A DNA stretch of 64,000 bases, taken from the NCBI RefSeq assembly GCF_003417535.1, contig NZ_QVLS01000007.1, positions 124,001-188,000 on the forward strand. Direction: 5' to 3'. Within the stretch, counting starts at the first letter, position 1; every line of letters starts with the position of its first letter. The notes beneath the pieces are model-generated. The model worked only from the letters and a program-made list of their open reading frames with translations. It was not told the DNA's origin and made no database searches. This document shows positions 23,880 to 39,012 of this stretch, piece by piece. Origin of the DNA: Hydrogenophaga borbori (GTDB taxonomy: Bacteria > Pseudomonadota > Gammaproteobacteria > Burkholderiales > Burkholderiaceae_C). Position numbers and translations under genes: made by a program.

Positions 23880-23880
<1 letters not shown>
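23314..23880 (-). CDS. ureE: Urease nickel metallochaperone UreE
   Basis: Nickel-binding dimer that hands nickel to UreG. The 188-residue protein has the N-terminal UreE domain ([20 protein letters not shown]), the core segment [20 protein letters not shown] with the interface His, and a C-terminal tail from about residue 155 holding fourteen histidines in [13 protein letters not shown] runs. The tail implies storage or buffering of several nickel ions. It starts as TGATG with the ureC stop. Confidence 0.96.
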
Positions 23881-25597
<1,717 letters not shown>

Positions 25598-25598
<1 letters not shown>

Positions 25599-26512: not shown

Positions 26513-26815
26513 TCATGGAATGGGTTGGTGGACGGTAACCAGCTTGGTGCCGTCGGGGAAGGTGGCTTCCACCTGGATGTCGGGAATCATCTCGGCCACG
26601 CCGTCCATGACGTCGGCGCGCGTGAGCACCTCGCGGCCCGCGCTCATGAGCTGCGCGACGGTCCGGCCGTCGCGCGCGCCCTCCATCACGGCGGCGGTGA
26701 TCAGGGCGATGGCCTCGGGGTGGTTGAGCTTGAGGCCGCGCGCGCGGCGGCGTTCGGCCAGCAGCGCGGCGGTGAAGATGAGCAGCTTGTCCTTCTCGCG
26801 CGGGGTCAGGTCCAT
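26513..26815 (-). CDS. ureA: Urease gamma subunit UreA
   Basis: Smallest urease subunit, 100 residues, starting [20 protein letters not shown] and ending in the family's [15 protein letters not shown]. It is the first gene of the leftward operon ureA-hupE-ureB-ureC-ureE-ureF-ureG. ureD, normally just upstream of ureA, is absent here and found at 49826-50656. The start faces the permease-kinase gene across 60 bases, so the two transcription units share a short control region. Confidence 0.98.
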
Positions 26816-26875
26816 GGTGGTCGGTTTCTCCTGCGGGCCGGGTCAGCAAGACGCATACCCGATGAGGGTAGTGGC

Positions 26876-26902
26876 ATGAAAGCTGCAGCGCCAGTCTCGT
26901 GA
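26876..26902 (+). CDS. Possible 8-codon leader ORF ahead of the permease-kinase gene
   Basis: An ATG at 26876 with a GAGGG ribosome site seven bases upstream opens a frame of eight codons (MKAAAPVS) that ends in a TGA overlapping the GTG start of the next gene (GTGA). The large gene itself has no Shine-Dalgarno of its own before the GTG, so this minimal ORF could deliver ribosomes by translational coupling. Peptide function is not implied. Alternatively it is chance. Confidence 0.4.
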   Translation: MKAAAPVS

Positions 26903-29900
26903 ACGCCTCGTCCGCCGATCCCGCCGCCGCCGCGCCCGACGCCCCGCAGCGCATCATCAAGGTGCGGCGCGACTACAACAGCTGGGTCGGCAGCGAGACC
27001 CTGGAGGACTACGCGCTGCGCTACACGCCGCAGCGCTTTCGCAAGTGGAGCGAGTGGCGCGTGGCCAACACCGCCTTCGGCGTGGCCTCCTTCCTGGTGC
27101 TGGAGGCCGTGGGCGCCACGCTGCTGCTCAGTGTCGGCTTCACCAACGCGGCGCTGGCCATCCTCGCCACCGGCCTGATCATCTTTCTCGCCGGCCTGCC
27201 CATCAGCGTCTATGCCGCGCGCCATGGCGTGGACATGGACCTGCTCACGCGCGGCGCGGGCTTCGGCTACATCGGCTCGACCATCACCTCGCTCATCTAC
27301 GCCTCCTTCACCTTCATCTTCTTCGCGCTGGAGGCCGCCGTCATGGCCTACGCGCTGGAACTGGCGCTGGACATCCCGCCCGCCTGGGGCTACCTCATCT
27401 GCGCGCTGGTGGTGATCCCGCTGGTGACGCACGGGGTGTCGGTGATCAGCCGCTTCCAGATGTGGACCCAGCCGCTGTGGCTGGTGATGATGGTGGTGCC
27501 TTTCCTGGCCGTCGCGGTGCACGCGCCCGAGACCTTCCGCGAGGTGGCGCACTACGCGGGTGCGTCCGGCACCGCGATGGGTTTCGACTGGCACCTGTTC
27601 GGTGCGGCCCTCACGGTGGGCATCGCCCTGATCACGCAGATGGGCGAGCAGGCCGACTACCTGCGCTTCATGCCGGCGCGCCAGCCCGGCCGGGGCCTGC
27701 GCTGGTGGGCAGCGGTCGTCGCTGGCGGCCCGGGCTGGGTGCTGATCGGGGTGCTCAAGATGCTCGGCGGCGCGCTGCTCGCCTACCTGGCCATCCGCCA
27801 CAGCGTGCCGGCCGAGCGTGCGGTCGACCCGAACCAGATGTACCTGGCCGCCTACGACTTCCTGCTGCCCCATGGCTGGGCGGTGGCGGCCACGGCCCTG
27901 TTCGTGGTGGTCTCGCAGCTCAAGATCAACGTCACCAACGCCTACGCGGGGTCGCTGGCCTGGAGCAACTTCTTCTCGCGCCTCACGCACAGCCACCCGG
28001 GCCGCGTGGTCTGGGTGGTGTTCAACACCTTCATCGCCTTCCTTCTGATGGAGATGAACGTGTTCCAGGCCCTGGGCCAGGTGCTGGGCGTGTACGCCAA
28101 CATCGCCATCGCCTGGATCATGGCCGTGGTGGCCGACCTGATCGTCAACAAGCCCCTGGGCCTGAGCCCGCCCGGCATCGAGTTCAAGCGCGCCCACCTG
28201 TACGACATCAATCCCGTGGGCGTGGGTGCCATGGCGCTGGCCTCGGTGGTGTCGATCACCGCGCACCTGGGCGTGATGGGGCCCACGGCCGAGGCGTTCT
28301 CGGCCGTGATCGCGATGGTCACGGCTTTCCTGGCCGCGCCAGCGATCGCCTGGCTCACCCGGGGGCGCTTCTATCTCGCGAGGCCGTCCGACCCCGACAC
28401 ACCGCGGAGCCGGCGCCGCCAGGCCGCCGGTGCGCCCGCCATGGCGGGCGGGCGCGCCGGCGGTGCCGCGGGGGGCGTCTGCGTCATCTGCGAACAGGTC
28501 TACGAAGGGCCCGACATGGCCCATTGCCCGGCCTACCAGGGGCCCATCTGTTCCCTGTGCTGCACGCTGGACGCGCGCTGCGGCGACCTGTGCAAGCCGC
28601 ACGCACGCCTGTCGGTGCAGTGGAACGGCGCCCTGCGCCGCCTCTTGCCCCGGCGGGCCTGGCCCTACCTGGACGCGGGCCTGGCGCACTACCTGCTGCT
28701 CATGCTCATCGTGGCGCCGCTGCTGGCGGCCGTGCTCGGGCTGCTGTACCGGCAGGAGGTGCAGTCCCTGGCGGCAACCCTGGGCGGCGGCAGCGCCTCC
28801 CTGCTCGACACCGCGCTGCGCTCGGGCTTCCTGCGGGTGTACGCCGTGCTGCTGCTGATCGCCGCCACGGTGGCCTGGTGGCTGGTGCTGGCGCACAAGA
28901 GCCGCGAGGTGGCGCAGGAGGAGTCGAACCGGCAGACCCACCTGCTGATGCGGGAGATCGAGTCGCACCGCCGCACCGACGAGGCCCTGCAGCAGGCGCG
29001 CCACGCGGCCGAGCAGGCCAACCAGGCCAAGACGCGCTACATCAGCACCATCAGCCACGAGCTGCGCACGCCGCTCAACAGCATCCTGGGCTATGCGCAG
29101 CTGCTGCAGGAGGACAGCGGCCTGGCGCCGCACCGCGCCCAGGCCATCCGGGTCATCCACCGCGGCGGCGAACACCTGCTGTCGCTCATCGAGGGCACGC
29201 TGGACATCGCGCGCATCGAGGCCGGCAAGTTCGCGCTCGACGTCAAACCCATGGCCTTCGCGGCCACGCTGGCCGAGGTGGCGGGCCTGTTCGAGCTGCA
29301 GGCCGCGGCCAAGGGCCTGCGTTTCGTCTACGACACCGACGGTCGCCTGCCCGAGGCCGTGCGCGCCGACGACAAGCGCGTGCGCCAAATCCTCATCAAC
29401 CTGCTCGGCAATGCCGTGAAGTTCACCCGGTCCGGCGAGGTGCGCCTGCGCGTGCGCCACGCGCGCGAAATGGCGCACTTCGAGGTGCACGACACCGGTC
29501 CCGGCATGGGCAGCGCCGACGTCGAGCGCGTGTTCGAGCCCTTCGCGCGCGGCGCGGGCGAGGCCGGCGATCGCTCGGGCGTGGTCGGCACCGGCCTGGG
29601 CCTGACCATCGCCAAGATGCTGACCGACCTGATGGGGGGCGAGCTCAGCGTGCGCAGCGCGCCGGGCCAGGGCAGCGTGTTCACCGTGCGCCTGTTCCTG
29701 CCCGAGATGCGCGGTGCGCTGCCGGTGCGCGAGCGCGTGGAGCTGCCGGCAGGCTACGAGGGGGAGCGCTGCCGCGTGCTGGTGGTGGACAACGAGGAAG
29801 CCGACCGCGAGCTGCTGCAGCGCTGGCTGGAGCCGCTGGGCTTCGAGGTGCAACTGGCGCGCAGCGGCGACCACGCGCTGGAACTGCTGGCCGGCCTGCG

Positions 29901-30411
29901 GCCCGGCGAGGCGCGCGCGCCGCACGCGGTGTTTCTCGATCTCGCGATGCCCGGCATCGACGGCTGGGAGACGCGCCGGCGCCTGCGCGCCGCCGGCTGG
30001 GCCGGTGTGCCGCTGGCCATCGTCTCGGCCAACGCCTTCGACAAGGGCCTGCACAGCGAACTGGAACCCGGCGAGGCGCTGCCGCCGCAGGACTTCTTCG
30101 TCAAGCCGGTGCGGCGGTCGGAATTGCTGGCCTGGCTGGCGCAGCGACTGGACCTGCGCTGGACCGAGGCGGCCGCGGCGCCCGAGCCGCCGCCGCTGGC
30201 GCGGCCCGAGGCGGCGCCCCCGGCGCGCGAGGAGATCGCCCCGCTGCTGGAACTGGTGCGCCTGGGCTACACGCGCGGCATCCTGCAGTGGCTGGACGAC
30301 TGGGTGCGGCGGCGGCCCGAGCGCGCGGGCCAGGCCGCCGCGCTGGCCACGCTGGCGCGTGAGTTCCGCTTCGAGGCCATCGAACGGCAGCTGGGGCAGG
30401 ACCATGTCTGA
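26899..30411 (+). CDS. NCS1 permease fused to hybrid histidine kinase and receiver
   Basis: A 1170-residue membrane protein combining a transporter and a signalling kinase. Residues about 1-500 form an NCS1-type (nucleobase/cytosine/hydantoin) permease with roughly twelve helices. Residues 528-568 hold eight Cys and two His (CVIC, then CSLCC and CGDLCKPH), like a metal-binding knuckle. Two further helices lie at about 596-616 and 645-665, then a coiled coil, the kinase H-box ISHELRTPLN with His720, N-box LINLLGNAVKFT, and ATP-binding domain to about 935. A receiver domain (958-1075) has phosphoacceptor Asp1014 in FLDLAMPG and Lys in FFVKPV. About 95 further residues follow. The start is GTG. 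It is divergent from ureA and overlaps a LuxR-type regulator by 8 bases, its likely partner. The ligand is unknown. Confidence 0.88.
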   Translation: MNASSADPAAAAPDAPQRIIKVRRDYNSWVGSETLEDYALRYTPQRFRKWSEWRVANTAFGVASFLVLEAVGATLLLSVGFTNAALAILATGLIIFLAGLPISVYAARHGVDMDLLTRGAGFGYIGSTITSLIYASFTFIFFALEAAVMAYALELALDIPPAWGYLICALVVIPLVTHGVSVISRFQMWTQPLWLVMMVVPFLAVAVHAPETFREVAHYAGASGTAMGFDWHLFGAALTVGIALITQMGEQADYLRFMPARQPGRGLRWWAAVVAGGPGWVLIGVLKMLGGALLAYLAIRHSVPAERAVDPNQMYLAAYDFLLPHGWAVAATALFVVVSQLKINVTNAYAGSLAWSNFFSRLTHSHPGRVVWVVFNTFIAFLLMEMNVFQALGQVLGVYANIAIAWIMAVVADLIVNKPLGLSPPGIEFKRAHLYDINPVGVGAMALASVVSITAHLGVMGPTAEAFSAVIAMVTAFLAAPAIAWLTRGRFYLARPSDPDTPRSRRRQAAGAPAMAGGRAGGAAGGVCVICEQVYEGPDMAHCPAYQGPICSLCCTLDARCGDLCKPHARLSVQWNGALRRLLPRRAWPYLDAGLAHYLLLMLIVAPLLAAVLGLLYRQEVQSLAATLGGGSASLLDTALRSGFLRVYAVLLLIAATVAWWLVLAHKSREVAQEESNRQTHLLMREIESHRRTDEALQQARHAAEQANQAKTRYISTISHELRTPLNSILGYAQLLQEDSGLAPHRAQAIRVIHRGGEHLLSLIEGTLDIARIEAGKFALDVKPMAFAATLAEVAGLFELQAAAKGLRFVYDTDGRLPEAVRADDKRVRQILINLLGNAVKFTRSGEVRLRVRHAREMAHFEVHDTGPGMGSADVERVFEPFARGAGEAGDRSGVVGTGLGLTIAKMLTDLMGGELSVRSAPGQGSVFTVRLFLPEMRGALPVRERVELPAGYEGERCRVLVVDNEEADRELLQRWLEPLGFEVQLARSGDHALELLAGLRPGEARAPHAVFLDLAMPGIDGWETRRRLRAAGWAGVPLAIVSANAFDKGLHSELEPGEALPPQDFFVKPVRRSELLAWLAQRLDLRWTEAAAAPEPPPLARPEAAPPAREEIAPLLELVRLGYTRGILQWLDDWVRRRPERAGQAAALATLAREFRFEAIERQLGQDHV

Positions 30412-31420
30412 GGCCATCGATCCGCAGCGCCTGTCGCCCCGCCTGCCGCGCGGCGAGCACCGCGTGGTGCTGCTGGTCGACGACGCGCCCGACAACCTGG
30501 CGCCCCTGCACGACGCGCTGGACGGCGCCGGCTACACCGTGCTCGTCGCGCTCGACGGCGAGAGCGCCATCCGCCGCGCGCGGCAGGCCCTGCCCGACAT
30601 GGTGCTGCTCGACGCGCTGATGCCCGGCATCGACGGTTTCGAGGTGGCGCGCCGCCTCAAGGCCGATGCGCTGACGGCCACCACGCCCATCATCTTCATG
30701 ACCGGCCTGACCGAGCCCGAGCACCTGGAGGCCGCGTTCGAGGCCGGGGGCGTGGACTACGTGACCAAGCCGGTCAAGCCGCGCGAGGTGATGGCCCGCA
30801 TGGCCCTGCACCTGCGCCAGGCGCGCCAGGCCCGCGACGGCGCGCGCGAGCGCAGCCAGGCGCGCCACGCGCTGGACGCCTTCGGCTACGCCACCATCAC
30901 CGTGCGCGCCAGCGACGGCCGCCTGCTGTGGCAGACGCCGCTCGCGCGCGAGCTGCTGCGCCAGCACGGCGGCGGCGATTCGGTGCACGCGCCCGAGGCC
31001 GTGCTGCACTGGCTGCGCCGCCACCTGGCCGACGCCCAGGCCCTGCGCGAGCCGCCCCGGCTCACCCTGCAGAACGGTCCGCGCCGCCTGAGCTTTCGCC
31101 TGCACCAGCGCGTGGGCGACGAGGACGGCGATCCCCTGGGCCAGGGCGACTGGCTGATCGTGATGCAGGAGACCTCGGATGAGTCGGCCTTCAGCGCGCT
31201 GTCGCAGGCCTTCGGCCTGACCGCGCGCGAGGCCGAGGTGCTCTACTGGGTCGTCAAGGGCAAGATCAACCGCGACATCGCCGACATCCTGGGCGCCAGC
31301 CCGGCCACGGTGAAGAAGCACCTGGAGCGCATCCACGCCAAGATGGGCGTGGAGACGCGCACGGCGGCGGCGGCGATGGCGATGCAGCGCGTGCGGCAGC
31401 TGGAGACGCTGAGGGGCTGA
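30404..31420 (+). CDS. LuxR-type response regulator paired with the permease-kinase
   Basis: A 338-residue regulator. The receiver domain has the acidic pair in LLVDDAPDN, phosphoacceptor Asp in VLLDALMPGIDGF, Thr in IFMTGL and Lys in YVTKPVKP. A middle region of about 120 residues (YATITVRASDGRLLWQTPLA) resembles a small PAS-like segment but is not certain. The C-terminal LuxR/GerE helix-turn-helix is plain (LTAREAEVLYWVVKGKINRD, then VKKHLERIHAKMGVETR). The start at 30404 overlaps the end of the permease-kinase gene, so the two proteins are almost certainly partners. Nearby candidate targets are ureA and the urt genes. Confidence 0.9.
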   Translation: MSEAIDPQRLSPRLPRGEHRVVLLVDDAPDNLAPLHDALDGAGYTVLVALDGESAIRRARQALPDMVLLDALMPGIDGFEVARRLKADALTATTPIIFMTGLTEPEHLEAAFEAGGVDYVTKPVKPREVMARMALHLRQARQARDGARERSQARHALDAFGYATITVRASDGRLLWQTPLARELLRQHGGGDSVHAPEAVLHWLRRHLADAQALREPPRLTLQNGPRRLSFRLHQRVGDEDGDPLGQGDWLIVMQETSDESAFSALSQAFGLTAREAEVLYWVVKGKINRDIADILGASPATVKKHLERIHAKMGVETRTAAAAMAMQRVRQLETLRG

Positions 31421-31469: not shown

Positions 31470-32798
31470 ATGCGACTGCGCACCAAGATCCTCCTGCTGG
31501 CCATCCTGCCGTTGCTGGCCGCGCTCGCGCTCATCGCCCTGGCCGTGCAGCAGCAGGAGCGCGCGCTGGCGCAGCGCGAGTACGCCCTGGTCGAGCGCGC
31601 CTACATGGACGCGCGGCGCAGCGAGTTGCGCAGCTACGTGGACCTGGCCGTGAGCACGGTGCGGCCGCTCTACGACCGGCGCGGCGGCGAGGCGGAGCGT
31701 GAACAGGCGCTGCGCCTGCTGGCGTCGCTCGACTACGGCCCCGACGGCTACTTCTTCGTCTACGACCTCCAGGGCAAGGTGCTGATGCACTCGCGCCAGA
31801 CCGAGCTGGTGGGCCAGAACCTCTGGGCGCTGAGAGACCCGCAGGGCCGGCCCACCATCCAGCGCCTGATCGCCCAGGCGCGCGCGGGCGGCGGTTTCGT
31901 CGACTACCTGTGGCAACAGCCCTCCAGCGGCCTGGTCAAACCCAAGCTGGGCTATGTCATCGCGCTCGAGCGCTGGGGCTGGATGATGGGCACCGGCCTG
32001 TACCTCGACGGCATCCAGGCCACGCTGTCGCAGCTGGAGCGCGAGGCCAACCGCAACATCGCCACCACGCTGCTGTGGATCGCCGGCATCGCGGCCTTTG
32101 GCATCGCCCTCATCAGCGCCAGCGGCCTGGCGCTCAACCTCAGCGAGCAGCGCGTGGCCGAGAACAAGCTGCGCCTGCTCGCGCGCCAGGTGCAGCAGTC
32201 GCAGGAGGACGAGCGCGCGCGCCTGGCGCGCGAGCTGCACGACGGCGTCAGCCAGACCCTGGTGTCGAGCAAGCTGCTGGTGGAGGCGGGCGCGGCGGAT
32301 GGCGATCGCGAGTCCCTGGCGCGCGCCCTGCGCCAGCTCGAAAACAGCCTGGTGGAGGTGCGGCGCATCTCGCACCGCCTGCGCCCCGCCTTGCTCGACA
32401 ACCTGGGCCTGCCCGCCGCGCTGCAGCACCTGGCGCGCGAGGTCGAAGACGCCAGCGGCCTGGCGGTGGCCGTGCGCCTGGAGGGCGCGCCGCGCGAGCT
32501 GGGCGACGAGGTCAAGACGGCGCTCTTTCGCATCGCCCAGGAGGGCCTGACCAATGTGGTCAAGCACGCGCAGGCCCGCCAGGTCGAGTTGCTGCTGGGC
32601 TTTGGCACCGGCGGCGCGCTGCGCCTGAGCCTGACCGACGACGGCCGAGGCTTCGACGAGCAGGCCGTGCAGCTCGACCCGGAACGCGGCATTGGCCTGC
32701 GCAACATGCGCGAGCGCCTGGCGGCCATCGGCGGGCGCCTGCGCATCCAGTCCGCGCCCGGCCATGGCACCCAGCTGGAGGCCGCGCTGTCCGCCTGA
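31470..32798 (+). CDS. Cache-domain sensor histidine kinase (NarX/HisKA_3 type)
   Basis: Inner-membrane kinase of 442 residues. Helix 1 is LLLAILPLLAALALIALAV, then an extracytoplasmic single-Cache domain of about 150 residues (YGPDGYFFVYDLQGKVLMH is the hallmark), helix 2 near TTLLWIAGIAAFGIALISA, and a HisKA_3 domain with RARLARELHDGVSQTL, followed by the ATP-binding domain with DDGRGF and GIGLRNMRERL. Single-Cache kinases often sense small carboxylates. The regulator gene follows after 8 bases, then cstA, so a role in sensing pyruvate or a similar acid is plausible. The start is taken at the ATG at 31470. Confidence 0.88.
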   Translation: MRLRTKILLLAILPLLAALALIALAVQQQERALAQREYALVERAYMDARRSELRSYVDLAVSTVRPLYDRRGGEAEREQALRLLASLDYGPDGYFFVYDLQGKVLMHSRQTELVGQNLWALRDPQGRPTIQRLIAQARAGGGFVDYLWQQPSSGLVKPKLGYVIALERWGWMMGTGLYLDGIQATLSQLEREANRNIATTLLWIAGIAAFGIALISASGLALNLSEQRVAENKLRLLARQVQQSQEDERARLARELHDGVSQTLVSSKLLVEAGAADGDRESLARALRQLENSLVEVRRISHRLRPALLDNLGLPAALQHLAREVEDASGLAVAVRLEGAPRELGDEVKTALFRIAQEGLTNVVKHAQARQVELLLGFGTGGALRLSLTDDGRGFDEQAVQLDPERGIGLRNMRERLAAIGGRLRIQSAPGHGTQLEAALSA

Positions 32799-32806
32799 GC
32801 TTTCCC

Positions 32807-33442
32807 ATGAACGCCCCCGGCAAGCCCATCCGCATCCTGCTCGTCGATGACCACCCCATGGTGCGCGAGGGCTTGCGCGCGCGCCTGTCCAGCGTGCCGC
32901 GCCTGCAGGTGGTGGGCGAGGCCGGCGACGCCGCCGAGGCGCTGCGCCAGCTCGAGCTGAACCCGCCCGACGTGGTGCTGCAGGACGTGGGCCTGAAGGA
33001 TGGCAACGGCATCGACCTGGTGCAGGCCATGCTGGCGCGCCAGCCCACGCTGCGCGTGCTGATGTTCAGCATGTACGACAACCCCGAGTACGTGCAGCGC
33101 GCCCTGCAGGCGGGCGCGCGCGGCTACGTGCTCAAGGAAACGCCGGCCGAGGAGGTGCTGGCCGCCATCGACGCCGTGGTGGCGGGCGGCACCTTCCTCA
33201 GCCCCGCCGTCTCGCGCCGCCTGTTCCGCGGCCAGGCGCCGCGGCCCATGCTCACGCCGCGCGAAAGCCAGATCCTCAGCGCCCTGGGCCGGGGCGAATC
33301 GAGCAAGCACATCGCCCAGGCCATGCACCTGAGCGTGCGCACCGTCGAGGCGCACCGCCAGAGCATCAAGCGCAAGCTGGGCATCGAAGGCCAGGCCGAG
33401 CTCATCAAGTACGCGGTGGAGCACGCGCGCGAAGCGCCCTGA
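32807..33442 (+). CDS. NarL/FixJ-family response regulator
   Basis: A 211-residue regulator: receiver domain with LLVDDHPMVREGLRARL, phosphoacceptor Asp in VVLQDVGLKDG and Lys in GYVLKETP, and a LuxR-type helix-turn-helix (LTPRESQILSALGRGESSKH, then VRTVEAHRQSIKRKLGI). It is the partner of the upstream Cache kinase, and cstA starts 166 bases downstream. Regulators of this type control cstA-like carriers in Pseudomonas and relatives, which fits the position. Confidence 0.9.
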   Translation: MNAPGKPIRILLVDDHPMVREGLRARLSSVPRLQVVGEAGDAAEALRQLELNPPDVVLQDVGLKDGNGIDLVQAMLARQPTLRVLMFSMYDNPEYVQRALQAGARGYVLKETPAEEVLAAIDAVVAGGTFLSPAVSRRLFRGQAPRPMLTPRESQILSALGRGESSKHIAQAMHLSVRTVEAHRQSIKRKLGIEGQAELIKYAVEHAREAP

Positions 33443-33471
33443 GCCCGCTGCCGCCGCGCTGCGGGGGGTGA

Positions 33472-33489
33472 TTAAGGGTTTTCCCTTAA
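33472..33489. promoter_or_regulatory. Inverted repeat upstream of cstA
   Basis: A perfect repeat TTAAGGG-TTTT-CCCTTAA in the 166-base gap between the regulator gene and cstA, about 120 bases before the cstA start. Its AT-rich arms stand out from the surroundings. It is a good candidate operator for the neighbouring LuxR-type regulator. Confidence 0.45.
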
Positions 33490-33568
33490 GTGGTGCCGCG
33501 CGGGATCGATCGTGGTGCAACGGATGCGCCACGGCGGTGCGCTGACCATACTGCGCGGCGCCCGGCGG

Positions 33569-33591
33569 CCCCGCCTTTTCTGGGGGCGGGG
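33569..33591 (+). promoter_or_regulatory. GC-rich hairpin just before the cstA ribosome site
   Basis: A 7-bp stem CCCCGCC/GGCGGGG with a 9-base loop ends three bases before the strong Shine-Dalgarno AAGAGGAG (33595-33602). It could modulate ribosome access or mRNA stability, or be incidental. Confidence 0.35.
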
Positions 33592-33608
33592 CTCAAGAGG
33601 AGACTGGC

Positions 33609-35681
33609 ATGTCTGGACTGGGTCGCCACCTCGGGTGGCTTTTCGTGGCCGTGTTGGGCGCCTTCGCGCTCGCGGCCGTGGCGCTGGGGCGCGGCGAGGC
33701 CGTCAGCGCCCTGTGGGTGGTGGTCGCCGCCGTCTGCGTCTACCTCATTGCCTACCGCTACTACAGCCTGTTCCTCGCCACCAAAGTGCTGGGCCTGGAC
33801 GGCCAGCGCATGACGCCCGCCTGGCGCCACAACGACGGCCTGGACTACGTGCCCACGCACAAGTACGTGCTCTACGGCCACCACTTCGCCGCCATCGCGG
33901 GCGCCGGTCCGCTGGTGGGCCCGGTGCTGGCCGCGCAGATGGGCTACCTGCCCGGGCTGCTGTGGCTGCTGGCCGGCGTGGTGTTCGCCGGCGCGGTGCA
34001 GGACTTCATCGTGCTGTTCATCTCCACGCGCCGCGACGGCCGCTCGCTGGGCGACCTGATCAAGCAGGAGATGGGCACCGTGCCCGGCCTGATCGCGCTG
34101 TTCGGCGCCTTCATGATCATGATCATCATCCTCGCGGTGCTGGCGCTGATCGTGGTCAAGGCCCTGGCCGACTCGCCCTGGGGCACCTTCACCGTGGCGG
34201 CCACCATCCCGGTGGCGCTGTTCATGGGCGTGTACCTGCGATTCATCCGCCCCGGTCGCATCGGCGAGGTCTCGGTGATCGGCTTCGTGCTGCTCATGCT
34301 GGCCATCGTGGGCGGCCAGTGGGTGCACGAGAGCCCGGTCTGGGCGCCGCTGTTCACCTACGACGGCAAGGCGCTGACCTGGATGCTCATCGGCTACGGC
34401 TTCGTCGCCGCTTCCATCCCGGTGTGGCTGCTGCTGGCGCCGCGCGACTACCTCTCCACCTTCCTCAAGATCGGCACCATCGTCGCACTGGCCATCGGCA
34501 TCGTGATCGTCGCCCCGCCGCTGCAGATGCCCGCCATGACGCAGTTCGCGGCCGGCAACGGCCCGGTGTGGTCGGGCAACCTGTTCCCCTTCCTGTTCAT
34601 CACCATCGCCTGCGGCGCGGTGTCGGGCTTTCACGCGCTGATCTCCTCGGGCACCACGCCCAAGATGCTGGACAACGAGACCCACGCGCGCTTCATCGGC
34701 TACGGCGGCATGCTGGCCGAGTCCTTCGTCGCCGTCATGGCCCTGGTCGCCGCCGCCTGCATCGACCCCGGTGTCTACTTCGCCATGAACAGCCCGGCCG
34801 CGCTGGTGGGCAACACGCCCGAGCTGGTCGCGGCCAAGCTGTCCACCTGGGGCTTCGTGATCACGCCCGAGATGCTGGTGCAGACCGCCAGGGACGTGGG
34901 CGAGAACACCATCCTGGCGCGCGCCGGCGGCGCGCCCACGCTGGCCGTGGGCATGGCCCACATCCTGCACCAGGTGGTGGGCGGCAAGACCATGATGGCC
35001 TTCTGGTACCACTTCGCCATCCTGTTCGAGGCCCTGTTCATCCTCACCGCGGTCGACGCCGGCACGCGCGCGGGCCGCTTCATGCTGCAAGACCTCATGG
35101 GCAGCTTCGTGCCCGCGCTCAAGCGCACCGACTCGCTGCCCGCCAACCTGATCGCCACCGCCCTGTGCGTGGCGGCCTGGGGCTACTTCCTCTACCAGGG
35201 CGTGGTCGACCCGCTGGGCGGCATCAACACCCTGTGGCCGCTGTTCGGCATCGCCAACCAGATGCTGGCCGCCGTGGCCCTGATGCTGGGCACCGTGGTG
35301 CTCTACAAGATGAAGAAGGACCGCTACGCCTGGGTCACCATGGCGCCCGCGGCCTGGCTGCTGGTCTGCACGCTGTCGGCGGGCTGGCTCAAGATCTTCT
35401 CCAGCGACCCCAAGGTGGGCTTCCTGTCCAACGCCCAGCGCTACGCCGACGCCATCCAGCAGGGCGTGCTGCTGGCGCCGGCCAAGACGGCAGAAGCCAT
35501 GTCGCGCATCGTCTTCAACAACCGCCTGGACGCGGTGCTGTGCGGCCTGTTCATGTTCGTGGTGCTGAGTGTGCTGGTCTACAGCGTCAAGAGCATCTTG
35601 CAGGCGCGCGCCGAGCGGCACGCCACCGCGAACGAGGTGCCCTTCGAAGCGCTGCCGGCCGGCGCCAATGCCGGTGCCTGA
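33609..35681 (+). CDS. cstA: CstA-family pyruvate/peptide transporter
   Basis: Inner-membrane carrier of 690 residues with many hydrophobic helices. CstA and its relative BtsT import pyruvate, and CstA has also been linked to peptide use. The family stretch ATKVLGLDGQRMTPAWRHND and KYVLYGHHFAAIAGAGPLVG near residues 56-105 is diagnostic, as is SGTTPKMLDNE. It begins with a strong ribosome site and overlaps ybdD by 14 bases. The Cache kinase/regulator pair lies just upstream and probably controls it. Confidence 0.95.
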   Translation: MSGLGRHLGWLFVAVLGAFALAAVALGRGEAVSALWVVVAAVCVYLIAYRYYSLFLATKVLGLDGQRMTPAWRHNDGLDYVPTHKYVLYGHHFAAIAGAGPLVGPVLAAQMGYLPGLLWLLAGVVFAGAVQDFIVLFISTRRDGRSLGDLIKQEMGTVPGLIALFGAFMIMIIILAVLALIVVKALADSPWGTFTVAATIPVALFMGVYLRFIRPGRIGEVSVIGFVLLMLAIVGGQWVHESPVWAPLFTYDGKALTWMLIGYGFVAASIPVWLLLAPRDYLSTFLKIGTIVALAIGIVIVAPPLQMPAMTQFAAGNGPVWSGNLFPFLFITIACGAVSGFHALISSGTTPKMLDNETHARFIGYGGMLAESFVAVMALVAAACIDPGVYFAMNSPAALVGNTPELVAAKLSTWGFVITPEMLVQTARDVGENTILARAGGAPTLAVGMAHILHQVVGGKTMMAFWYHFAILFEALFILTAVDAGTRAGRFMLQDLMGSFVPALKRTDSLPANLIATALCVAAWGYFLYQGVVDPLGGINTLWPLFGIANQMLAAVALMLGTVVLYKMKKDRYAWVTMAPAAWLLVCTLSAGWLKIFSSDPKVGFLSNAQRYADAIQQGVLLAPAKTAEAMSRIVFNNRLDAVLCGLFMFVVLSVLVYSVKSILQARAERHATANEVPFEALPAGANAGA

Positions 35682-35950: not shown

Positions 35951-35975
35951 GTACGCCAAGCGGCGTACATACGCC
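35951..35975. promoter_or_regulatory. Inverted repeat in the urtA upstream region
   Basis: GTACGCC-AAGC-GGCGTAC (35951-35968) is a perfect 7-bp inverted repeat, followed directly by a further partial copy, ATACGCC. It lies about 120 bases before urtA in a 189-base gap. It may be a regulator site. No sigma-54 promoter (GG-N10-GC type with TGGCAC/TTGC) was recognised. Confidence 0.35.
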
Positions 35976-36087: not shown

Positions 36088-37395
36088 ATGTCGTCGAACA
36101 CCTCCCAACCGCGTCGCCTGACGCTCAAGACCCTGGCGGCCGCCGCCACCGCCGCCTCGCTCGGCTTCACCGGCCTGAGCGCGCACGCCCAGGACACCAT
36201 CAAGGTCGGTGTGCTGCACAGCCTGTCGGGCACCATGGCCATTTCGGAAACCGTGCTCAAGGACACGGTGCTCATGGCCATCGACGAGATCAACGCCAAG
36301 GGCGGCCTGCTGGGCAAGAAGCTCGAGCCCGTGGTGGTGGACCCGGCCTCCAACTGGCCCCTGTTCGCCGAAAAGACCAAGCAGCTGCTCACGCAGGACA
36401 AGGTCGCGGTGATCTTCGGCTGCTGGACCTCGGTCAGCCGCAAGTCGGTGCTGCCGGTGGTGGAAGAGAACAACGGCCTGTTGTTCTACCCCGTGCAATA
36501 CGAGGGCGAGGAGCTCAGCCCCAACGTGTTCTACACCGGTGCCGCGCCCAACCAGCAGGCCATTCCGGCGGTGGAGTACCTCATGAGCAAGGACGGCGGA
36601 TCGGCCAAGCGCTGGGTGCTGCTGGGCACCGACTACGTCTACCCGCGCACCACCAACAAGATCCTGCGCGCCTTCCTCAAGAGCAAGGGCGTGAGCGAGG
36701 CCGACATCATGGAGGAGTACACCCCCTTCGGCCACAGCGACTACCAGACCATCATCGCCAAGATCAAGAAGTTCGCGGCCGAGGGCAAGAAGACGGCCGT
36801 GGTCTCCACCATCAACGGCGACTCCAACGTGCCCTTCTACAAGGAACTGGGCAACGCGGGCCTCTCCGCCAAGGACGTGCCGGTGGTGGCCTTCTCCGTG
36901 GGCGAGGAAGAGCTGCGCGGCGTGGACACCAAGCCGCTGGTGGGCCATCTGGCCGCCTGGAACTACTTCATGAGCATCAAGAGCCCGGCCAACACGGCCT
37001 TCGTGAAGAAGTGGAGCGACTACGCCAAGGCCAAGAACATCGCCGGCCACAAGGACAAGCCCATCACCAACGATCCGATGGAGGCCACCTACATCGGCTT
37101 CAACATGTGGGCGCAGGCCGTGACCAAGGCCAAGAGCACCGACGTGGACAAGGTGCGCGAGGCCATGGCGGGCCAGACCTTCCCGGCACCGGGCGGCTTC
37201 GTCTCCACCATGGACAAGGAGAACCACCACCTGCACAAGCCGGTGTTCATTGGCGAGGTGCGCGCCGACGGCCAGTTCAACGTGGTGTGGAAGACCCCGG
37301 GCCCGGTGGTGGCCGACCCCTGGAGCGACTACATCCCCGAGAACAAGGGCAAGAAGAACGTGCCCAGCAAGGCCGCCAAGGTGGCGTCCAAGTAA
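36088..37395 (+). CDS. urtA: Urea ABC transporter substrate-binding protein UrtA
   Basis: Periplasmic binding protein of the high-affinity urea importer, 435 residues. The N-terminus carries a twin-arginine-like signal (PRRLTLKTLAAAA, ending AHAQD at about residue 35). The mature part begins DTIKVGVLHSLSGTMAISE, typical of UrtA/AmiC, with VIFGCWTSVSRKSVLPVVE. A ribosome site GGAGAAG precedes the ATG. First gene of urtABCDE, the usual order, with urtB 18 bases downstream. Confidence 0.96.
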   Translation: MSSNTSQPRRLTLKTLAAAATAASLGFTGLSAHAQDTIKVGVLHSLSGTMAISETVLKDTVLMAIDEINAKGGLLGKKLEPVVVDPASNWPLFAEKTKQLLTQDKVAVIFGCWTSVSRKSVLPVVEENNGLLFYPVQYEGEELSPNVFYTGAAPNQQAIPAVEYLMSKDGGSAKRWVLLGTDYVYPRTTNKILRAFLKSKGVSEADIMEEYTPFGHSDYQTIIAKIKKFAAEGKKTAVVSTINGDSNVPFYKELGNAGLSAKDVPVVAFSVGEEELRGVDTKPLVGHLAAWNYFMSIKSPANTAFVKKWSDYAKAKNIAGHKDKPITNDPMEATYIGFNMWAQAVTKAKSTDVDKVREAMAGQTFPAPGGFVSTMDKENHHLHKPVFIGEVRADGQFNVVWKTPGPVVADPWSDYIPENKGKKNVPSKAAKVASK

Positions 37396-37413: not shown

Positions 37414-39012
37414 ATGCGCGGTGTGATCGTCCGTTGCTGTGCCGCGCTGCTGGCCTGGTGCTGCCTGGCGGGACCCGTCCAGGCGCTGAGCGCGGCCGAC
37501 GCGCTCGCGGTGGCGCGGGGCGACACGGACGACCGCATCGCCGCCATCCACCGCCTCGCCGGCTCGGCCGACGATCGCGCCACGGCCCTGCTGCGCGCGC
37601 TCGCCGCCGAGTCGCTGAAGTTCAGCGACTCCCAGGTCTTCATCGTCGAGGGCGAGCGCGCCCTCGACGCCCTCAGCGGCCAGCCCGCGGCGCTGCCCGA
37701 CGCGGCCGAGGACGCGATGCTCAACAACCGCCTGCGCGGCGCGCTCGACACCGCCCTGGCCGGCATCGAGCTGTTCACTGCCGGTCCCGAGCGCCAACGC
37801 GAGGCCGCGCGCAGCCTGCAGCGCAACGCCTTCAACGACCCCGACCCCGAAGGCCTGCCCCTGATCGAGAAAGCCCTGGCCACCGGGCTGGACGCGGGGG
37901 CGCGCCAGTCGCTGGAGCTCGCGCAGGCGGCCCTGCAGCTCGCCAGCGCGGACCAGGCCCAGCGCCTGGCCGCCGCCCTCAAGCTGGGCGAGGCGCGCCA
38001 GCCCATCGTGCGCCCCTTGATCGAAGAGCGCCTGAAGAACGAGGCGAGTGCCGAGGTCCAGACCGCGCTGGCGGCGTCGCTCGCGGCCATCGACCGCCGC
38101 GTCGCCCTGGCCAGCGGCCTGGGCCAGGCGTTCACCGGCATCAGCCTGGGCAGCATCCTGCTGCTCGCGGCCCTGGGCCTGGCCATCACCTACGGGCTCA
38201 TGGGTGTGATCAACATGGCCCATGGCGAGCTGATCATGATCGGCGCCTACGCCACCTGGCTGGTGCAGGGCCTGTTCCGCCAGTACCTGCCGGACTGGTT
38301 CGACTTCTACCTGCTGCTGGCGCTGCCCGCGGCCTTCGCCGCCTCGGCCCTGGTGGGCGCGGTGATGGAGCGCACCGTGATCCGTTTCCTCTATGGCCGC
38401 CCGCTGGAGACCCTGCTGGCCACCTGGGGCATCTCCCTGGTGCTCATGCAGCTGGTGCGCAGCCTGTTCGGCGCGCAGAACGTGGCGGTGGAAAACCCCA
38501 GTTGGATGAGTGGCGGCATCACCGTGCTGGGCAGCCTGAGCCTGCCGTGGAACCGGCTCATCATCCTGGCCTTCGCGGCGGCGGTGCTGATCGGCGTGTC
38601 GCTGCTCATCGCACGCACCCGGCTGGGGCTGTTCGTGCGCGGCGTGACCCAGAACCGGCCCATCGCGGCCTGCATGGGCGTGAACACCGCGCGCATCGAC
38701 ACCTGGGCCTTCGCGCTGGGCTCGGGCATCGCGGGCCTGGCGGGCTGCGCGCTCTCGCAGATCGGCAACGTCGGCCCCGACCTCGGCCAGGCCTACATCG
38801 TCGATTCCTTCATGGTGGTGGTGCTGGGCGGCGTCGGCCAGCTGGCGGGCACCGTCTATGCGGCGCTGGGCCTGGGCCTGATCAACAAGTTCATCGAAGG
38901 CTGGGCCGGCGCGGTGCTCGCCAAGATCGCGGTGCTGGTGTTCATCATCGTGTTCATCCAGAAACGCCCGCAAGGCATCTTCGCCCTCAAGGGCAGGAGC
39001 GTGGAAGCATGA
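37414..39012 (+). CDS. urtB: Urea ABC transporter permease UrtB
   Basis: Membrane permease of the LivH type, 532 residues. It is longer than ordinary LivH because of an N-terminal region of about 230 residues with a signal sequence (LLAWCCLAGPVQA) and an HEAT-like helical segment, a known UrtB feature. The permease part starts near LGQAFTGISLGSILLLAALG and contains GVINMAHGELIMIGAYATW and VVLGGVGQLAGTVYAALGLG. The stop overlaps urtC (ATGA). Confidence 0.95.
   Translation: MRGVIVRCCAALLAWCCLAGPVQALSAADALAVARGDTDDRIAAIHRLAGSADDRATALLRALAAESLKFSDSQVFIVEGERALDALSGQPAALPDAAEDAMLNNRLRGALDTALAGIELFTAGPERQREAARSLQRNAFNDPDPEGLPLIEKALATGLDAGARQSLELAQAALQLASADQAQRLAAALKLGEARQPIVRPLIEERLKNEASAEVQTALAASLAAIDRRVALASGLGQAFTGISLGSILLLAALGLAITYGLMGVINMAHGELIMIGAYATWLVQGLFRQYLPDWFDFYLLLALPAAFAASALVGAVMERTVIRFLYGRPLETLLATWGISLVLMQLVRSLFGAQNVAVENPSWMSGGITVLGSLSLPWNRLIILAFAAAVLIGVSLLIARTRLGLFVRGVTQNRPIAACMGVNTARIDTWAFALGSGIAGLAGCALSQIGNVGPDLGQAYIVDSFMVVVLGGVGQLAGTVYAALGLGLINKFIEGWAGAVLAKIAVLVFIIVFIQKRPQGIFALKGRSVEA

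Follow-up and report, generated by a model that had tools for sequence, protein, structure and literature searches.

What does a permease that continues into a histidine kinase sense, and which genes does it control? The question is raised by a gene in a 64,000-nucleotide stretch of the Hydrogenophaga borbori genome (contig NZ_QVLS01000007.1, positions 124,001 to 188,000; hereafter the window), which joins an NCS1-like permease, a histidine kinase, and a receiver domain in one frame, overlaps a LuxR-type regulator gene, and lies back to back with ureA. Transporter-fused bacterial kinases are known from the SLC5 branch, with systems for acetate, histidine, and pyruvate. A search of the literature in one open library turned up neither a characterised kinase fusion of the NCS1 kind nor a urea-related role of this permease, and the excerpts of PMC12625717 and PMC11109136 hold no relevant case. 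We find that the gene encodes a conserved transporter-kinase that has gone unannotated and is tied to urea and small amides. The protein is likely a sensor of urea or short-chain amides and is predicted to act, by way of its LuxR partner, on the palindrome TACG-N8-CGTA and so to switch on uptake genes.

The fusion frame has a GTG start and no internal stop (Table 1). With its HisKA, HATPase_c, and receiver domains and the corresponding His and Asp residues, the protein qualifies as a hybrid histidine kinase. An earlier note, made from the sequence of the window, had described a single frame with two extra helices, a complete kinase, and a receiver, and both His720 and Asp1014 are where it placed them; the eight-cysteine module at residues 528 to 565 is an addition to its list of parts. 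The overlap that it reported with a dedicated LuxR-type regulator gene is likewise present and amounts to 8 nucleotides. We queried 299 Pseudomonadota genomes with the permease part of the fusion and obtained 46 places in 40 genomes, comprising 42 long frames (894 amino acids or more) in 38 genomes and 4 shorter ones; a search of this sample with a non-fused relative returned the same 42 genes in 38 genomes and nothing else. The 42 fusions are those of 40 non-window loci, retrieved in stretches of up to 20 kb each, plus the window and locus L072. His720 is kept in 41 of 41 aligned fusions and Asp1014 in 39, the remaining two (L060 and L070) ending before the receiver. With these two receiver-less rows dropped (741 pairs from 39 sequences), mean pairwise identity is 0.617 for the permease, 0.56 for the kinase, and 0.415 for the receiver. 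The number of homologous fusion frames (42, in 38 of the 299 genomes) and a permease conserved above the kinase show that the frame is not a product of chance, and the recurrence of the one-chain arrangement indicates that it is old and stable. That the frame is mis-assembled, or stands for two distinct proteins, is an alternative for which we found no supporting point and which is almost certainly wrong in the face of so many uninterrupted homologous frames. The joining of permease, cysteine module, two helices, kinase, and receiver is a real fusion.

The earlier note had proposed a search for the same domain order near nitrogen genes elsewhere. Among the 40 non-window loci, 39 carry urt, fmdA/fmdB (formamidase), amiE (amidase), or urease genes, and in the fortieth (L042) the fusion stands at a contig end; neighbours were named by Pfam and NCBIfam searches of cluster representatives (UrtA, UrtB, UrtC, ABC ATPases, FmdA, FmdB-type zinc ribbon, and aliphatic amidase). 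In a second, named set, the 80 best of at least 595 betaproteobacterial loci, a urea or amide gene is present in 67 (for stretches of at least 18 kb, in 52 of 60), and the fusion most often faces ureA, the arrangement seen in the window. A distinct subfamily of UrtA-like binding proteins (at least 74% identity to that of locus L035; next best, 47%) occurs in 28 of the 299 genomes, and all 28 are among the 38 fusion genomes. Permease matches in a plasmid collection amounted to 526 records, and all five annotated fusion contexts that we inspected include urea or amide genes: formamidase and a HAAT transporter in Burkholderia vietnamiensis, formamidase and aliphatic amidase in Methylovirgula, urtABCDE and formamidase in Klebsiella quasipneumoniae, the regulator and urtABCDE on pSymB of Sinorhizobium meliloti, and urease in Mitsuaria. 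In the permease tree, urease-type rows mostly share one starred branch with the window, with L068 and L071 having a urease setting though placed among amide-type rows. Two genomes (G225 and G246) and locus L100 each hold two copies, one urease-type and one amide-type.

Most of the plasmid records matched by the permease, 342 of 526, come from Klebsiella; one inspected record has the fusion, urtABCDE, and formamidase between insertion sequence elements.

Which genes might the regulator act on? An inverted-repeat search of the gaps upstream of fusions yielded the palindrome TACG-N8-CGTA, which is present in 23 of 108 gaps, where mononucleotide shuffles predict 0.3. All 23 belong to the sampled set, which has 40 gaps (39 loci plus the window, whose own gap is without it). 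The sole exact match in the window, TACGCCAAGCGGCGTA, precedes urtA. An exact palindrome lies within 600 bp upstream of the binding-protein gene in 27 of the 33 sampled loci that hold such a gene, with 36 exact palindromes in 780,164 bases overall, and 64 to 208 bp upstream of 26 of 26 called binding-protein genes (25 urtA-like, 1 FmdD-like) in the named loci, with 36 palindromes in 1,519,955 bases. In contrast, the palindrome is found in 0 of 40 urtA upstream regions from genomes without a fusion (one of these regions being only 210 bp long). Eight of 20 further urtA upstream regions in fusion genomes carry it: three of the window type (G019, G225, and G246), four that adjoin their fusions and are already counted among the 27, and an odd match in G174. 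The site is present at urtA even where the fusion is about 100 kb (G019) or 59 kb (G225) away. Four of the five plasmid contexts also have it, before the binding-protein gene in L238, L240, and L241 and, in the Methylovirgula plasmid (L239), before formamidase and again before aliphatic amidase; L243, with urease only, has none. The palindrome thus tracks the fusion and its substrate genes, not urtA as such. The link to urea genes, which the earlier note had drawn from position, is strengthened by this shared site upstream of urtA and by synteny across the phylum.

Inverted repeats of the form TAC...GTA are often used by LuxR-family regulators, and the palindrome is of this kind. It is very improbable, in our judgment, that the palindrome belongs to another regulator and that the fusion regulates something else. 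Binding of the palindrome by the LuxR partner is a prediction, the site is mostly missing from the gap between ureA and the fusion, and some fusions are without nearby urea genes; against this stand the 0 of 40 sites without a fusion versus 27 of 33 and 26 of 26 with one, and the precedent of CrbR (PMC5715377).

Of the two fusion genes of locus L100, the first adjoins a gene for an FmdD-like binding protein with the palindrome upstream.

The 83-bp gap between ureA and the fusion gene contains two back-to-back sigma-54-like sites, one facing each gene (Table 1). They are the only two such matches in the window; 0.99 are expected per 64 kb, so the pair is not rare in itself. Across urease-type gaps, sigma-54-like sites toward the fusion occur in 38 of 64 (0.1 expected) and toward the upstream gene in 37 of 64 (0.08 expected); in amide-type gaps, the corresponding counts are 7 and 0 of 33. 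Neither gap yielded anything in generic scans for sigma-70 promoters and terminators. A dyad, TACCCGATGAGGGTA, at 26856-26870 was considered as a site; it is exact only in the window among the 108 gaps, is changed in close relatives, and overlaps the sigma-54-like site facing ureA, and for these reasons it was dropped.

We next turn to the ligand. Searches with the permease part (residues 1 to 503) gave no sequence match in PDB and, up to E 10, nothing in Pfam or NCBIfam, and neither this part nor any place in H. borbori's own genome matches PF02133 or TIGR00800. Scanned over 114 genomes, PF02133 matched 11 places that all lack an open frame longer than 550 amino acids, so this model does not surface the fusion. 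A 32%-identical relative does match both models, and the predicted fold, of the CodB/Mhp1 kind, is closest to CodB and Mhp1 among solved structures. NCS1 structures stood well above SLC5 ones (CHT1, 22.0) among the matches listed, the superfamily fold being common to both; an hhalign comparison of the family with single CodB covered 130 columns only, at probability 11.9. The assignment to NCS1 in the earlier note therefore holds for the predicted fold and through this relative, and is not readable from family models. Two substrate-flanking aromatics, a Trp in transmembrane helix 3 (TM3) and a Phe or Trp in TM6, are described as conserved through NCS1 in the CodB paper (PMC9379551). In the fusions, the position of the CodB TM3 Trp is occupied by Phe (37 of 41) or Leu (4 of 41), and the TM6 aromatic is absent, with Leu, Ile, Val, Met, or Ser there in either register. 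Because this two-aromatic sandwich is not kept, we file the domain as NCS1-like rather than canonical NCS1; with the aromatics replaced, a flat base would lose its stack. CodB and Mhp1 further differ from the fusion in being stand-alone proteins (PMC9379551). A small polar ligand would fit the invariant polar residues near the two aromatic positions (Thr138, Glu145, Gln247, Glu250, Gln251, Gln340, Lys342, Asn344, and Asn347). Among NCS1 proteins, the use of an open-chain nitrogen compound as substrate has a precedent in the metformin transporter MetT, which is stand-alone, unlike the fusion, and is likened here by substrate type and not by sequence (PMC13390362). Lys342 was also considered as a sodium-site residue and dropped, as it falls on CodB Thr278 in the ungapped alignment and on Trp277 in the gapped one.

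The earlier note had suggested a nucleobase, hydantoin, or ureide as the ligand, through which the fusion would report nitrogen supply. The nearest solved folds, those of cytosine and hydantoin transporters, and the source labels of relatives as purine-cytosine or allantoin permease would agree with such a ligand. We nevertheless regard it as quite unlikely: a search of 120 loci for AllB and CodA relatives (E 1e-10, with at least half of the query covered; hydantoinases being covered via AllB only) found none, the aromatic sandwich is not kept, and urea and small amides are indicated both by the neighbouring genes and by the non-fused kin.

The non-fused class comprises 17 records of the plasmid collection at E 1e-150, of which we inspected nine, eight of them annotated. 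In six of the eight, the permease gene lies in or near a urease, formamidase, or amidase operon: it is the first gene of the urease operon on two Acinetobacter plasmids, is downstream of urease genes in Klebsiella (on a stretch that looks chromosomal because rpoD and dnaG also lie on it), faces fmdA-fmdB in Moraxella, is near fmdA in Tsukamurella, and adjoins aliphatic amidase in Arthrobacter U41. The Acinetobacter lwoffii member (535 amino acids) is 43.9% identical to the permease over 488 columns. Eleven of 12 candidate pocket positions checked are identical in seven of seven non-fused kin and the window, position 245 being Ile or Met. A starred branch (99) separates fusions from non-fused kin, consistent with a single fusion event; with so distant an outgroup, the root is unsure. 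We put forward a broader proposal with a little less than even confidence: an unrecognised NCS1-fold branch, at present labelled cytosine or allantoin permease, may consist of secondary urea and short-chain-amide permeases, one of which would have been fused once to a kinase in Pseudomonadota, with a zinc- or redox-tuned cysteine module and helices relaying the transport cycle to urea and amide uptake.

Three non-fused permeases (L242, 7947-9554; L248, 5956-7563; L245, 5926-7569) are labelled hypothetical protein, cytosine permease, or allantoin permease in urease or formamidase loci; they are likely urea or amide transporters. A more distant relative that matches PF02133 (L073) is accompanied by a CN-hydrolase, a UrtA/AmiC-like binding protein, and an AmiR/ANTAR protein. 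In a nitrogen-starvation table of PMC4222082, msmeg_3402, labelled "cytosine permease", appears together with the formamidase msmeg_3403.

The linker, in the position that STAC takes in other transporter-kinases, consists of the eight cysteines and two transmembrane helices and has no Pfam match of note. All eight cysteines are invariant in 41 of 41 aligned fusions, and the pattern is matched by 181 of 185 homologues of 650 amino acids or more. A search of the 299 genomes with the cysteine region found 44 places, namely the 42 fusions and 2 weak ones, one with internal stops and one in a 102-amino-acid frame. Its structure matches are weak and RING/PHD-like; because none is below E 1, this likeness is a hint only. 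Non-fused kin have a reduced C-terminal cysteine motif in four of seven cases and have lost it in three. Could the module itself be the sensor, of zinc, nickel, or redox state, while the permease merely anchors or transports? Its invariance, its confinement to the fusion family in the sample, the RING/PHD hint, and the requirement of urease for nickel would all fit. We consider this unlikely, since the permease is the most conserved part and the three non-fused kin without cysteine ligands still keep the checked pocket positions.

Several observations weigh against the fusion as a urea and amide sensor that controls uptake through the palindrome. Many of the loci are related, so that the counts are not independent. 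Eight of the 60 long named loci have no urea or amide gene nearby, and the non-fused permeases of Streptomyces and Arthrobacter NicSoilB11 (two of eight) have no urease, formamidase, or amidase gene near them. At the binding-protein gene, six of the 33 sampled loci lack an exact palindrome (four have one mismatch, two none). Among the further urtA regions in fusion genomes, 12 of 20 are without it; 11 of these are second urtA copies away from an amide-type fusion, and the G162 urtA adjoins its fusion. H. borbori's own 4.58-Mb genome has three exact palindromes in all, including, besides that at urtA, a C9 site in a TetR/MFS gap, which was taken as chance, and a C12 site elsewhere. A score matrix detects the palindrome in just 14 of the 64 urease-type gaps, and the gap of the window is not among the 14. 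Regulation of ureA, or of the fusion gene, through the palindrome is therefore not supported there; the evidence from the site favours urtA over ureA as the predicted target. The TM8 register moves by one residue with one alignment gap, and the Na2-site residues are not placeable. Finally, the two receiver-less fusions of the sample depart from the common architecture.

The receiver-less variant of L060 and L070 is 885 to 894 amino acids long and has formamidase and FmdB-type genes nearby. The L060 locus also has an AmiS/UreI-type channel, and the phosphorelay there may be split because the adjoining protein is a REC-HisKA-HATPase. The eight long loci without urea or amide genes (L112, L124, L130, L133, L134, L135, L142, and L159) contain both fusion and regulator, and targets may sit elsewhere in those genomes; a 1178-amino-acid gene beside L159 was considered as urea carboxylase and rejected, as the start of the protein does not look so.

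These data suggest how a urea and amide sensor of this kind, a putative transceptor kinase for Urt-type uptake, might work. The NCS1-like domain would bind urea in the window branch or a small amide in most other branches, and the binding or transport cycle would alter how the two added helices and the adjoining eight-cysteine module are positioned. This change would switch autophosphorylation at His720, and phosphate would pass to the LuxR regulator, via Asp1014 or directly. The regulator would then bind the palindrome upstream of urtA, or of a formamide/amide binding-protein gene, and turn uptake on. Within the urease-type branch, divergent sigma-54 promoters probably serve both ureA and the sensor gene. 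Nitrogen hunger would then make both sensor and urease; urea itself, on meeting the sensor, would call up the importer urtABCDE, and we infer this as the simplest circuit.

The comparison with CbrA-type carrier-kinase fusions drawn in the earlier note is apt, as both have a LeuT-fold transporter N-terminal to a histidine kinase. CbrA of Pseudomonas, an SLC5-STAC-kinase that is reportedly also the subject of PMC7096432, shares this arrangement and has its own SLC5, STAC, and PAS domains and a histidine ligand (PMC13022988); the fusion here differs in its NCS1 fold, eight-cysteine module, two transmembrane helices, receiver, LuxR partner, and urea/amide genes. CrbS/CrbR, for acetate use, is alike in its transporter-domain hybrid kinase, its LuxR-family partner, and an inverted-repeat site before substrate-use genes, a site that is absent where the system is absent, as with the palindrome here; it differs in having SLC5 and STAC domains, an acetate regulon, and an ACTU motif (e.g., TACTACCATCGTCGAAT) distinct from TACG-N8-CGTA (PMC5715377). 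RpuS/RpuR likewise has a transporter-fused kinase controlling an uptake gene, but it is of the SLC5/STAC family and its target is a pyruvate symporter (PMC9100948). The AmiC/AmiR pair resembles the proposed system in small-amide sensing, and L073 has an AmiR-type ANTAR protein, but AmiC/AmiR is an antiterminator pair and not a kinase. By analogy, the fusion may work like CbrA and CrbS; it would belong to neither by transporter or, as far as seen, by linker. A figure legend in PMC13296017 shows a hybrid kinase and a LuxR regulator among Ectopseudomonas urea genes, without function.

If a urea and amide sensor is indeed what the fusion encodes, kinase fusion would have arisen in two transporter branches, here with another linker and a regulon for nitrogen, and a dedicated urea/amide sensor would exist in many bacteria of soil and fresh water and in many that are plant-associated. 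A permease family that is auto-annotated as cytosine or allantoin permease would gain a substrate, and the fusion would offer a ready-made sensor for urea and formamide.

TABLE 1 Features of the fusion locus and its surroundings in the window
Feature	Position	Strand	Remark
ureC	23880..25598	-	
ureA	26513..26815	-	Divergent neighbour, 83-bp gap to fusion
Sigma-54-like -24/-12 site facing ureA	26845..26859	-	Consensus match, not function
Sigma-54-like -24/-12 site facing fusion gene	26873..26887	+	Consensus match, not function
Fusion gene (NCS1-like permease, eight-cysteine module, two transmembrane helices, HisKA, HATPase, receiver)	26899..30411	+	1170 amino acids
NCS1-like permease domain	27001..28389	+	Residues 35-497
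Eight-cysteine module C-x2-C-x11-C-x7-C-x2-CC-x5-C-x3-C	28480..28593	+	Residues 528-565; cysteine conservation, pattern match
Two extra transmembrane helices	28666..28905	+	Residues 590-622 and 638-669; hydropathy; model with two long helices
HisKA with His720	29026..29226	+	Residues 710-776
HATPase_c	29368..29700	+	Residues 824-934
Receiver (Response_reg) with Asp1014	29776..30132	+	Residues 960-1078
LuxR-type response regulator	30404..31420	+	338 amino acids; Response_reg and GerE/LuxR domains
TACGCCAAGCGGCGTA, predicted binding site of LuxR regulator	35952..35967	.	120 bp before urtA
urtA, predicted target	36088..37395	+	TIGR03407 above cut-off
urtB	37414..39012	+	TIGR03409 above cut-off
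urtC-E			Downstream of urtB; read from open reading frame list

Between the regulator gene and the urt genes (window positions 31470-35681, 3' of the regulator) lie genes for a Cache-domain histidine kinase, a LuxR-type regulator, and CstA. The best NCBIfam match of the Cache kinase is MctS (416 bits, below the cut-off of 700), and CstA matches the pyruvate/proton symporter model at 1148 bits against a cut-off of 1188. The three look like a separate pyruvate circuit; they were considered as partners of the fusion and ruled out, as they do not recur beside it. The UrtB of the window has a long N-terminal extension, the UrtB model spanning residues 237-528 of 532, and the UrtB of L062 is similarly long.

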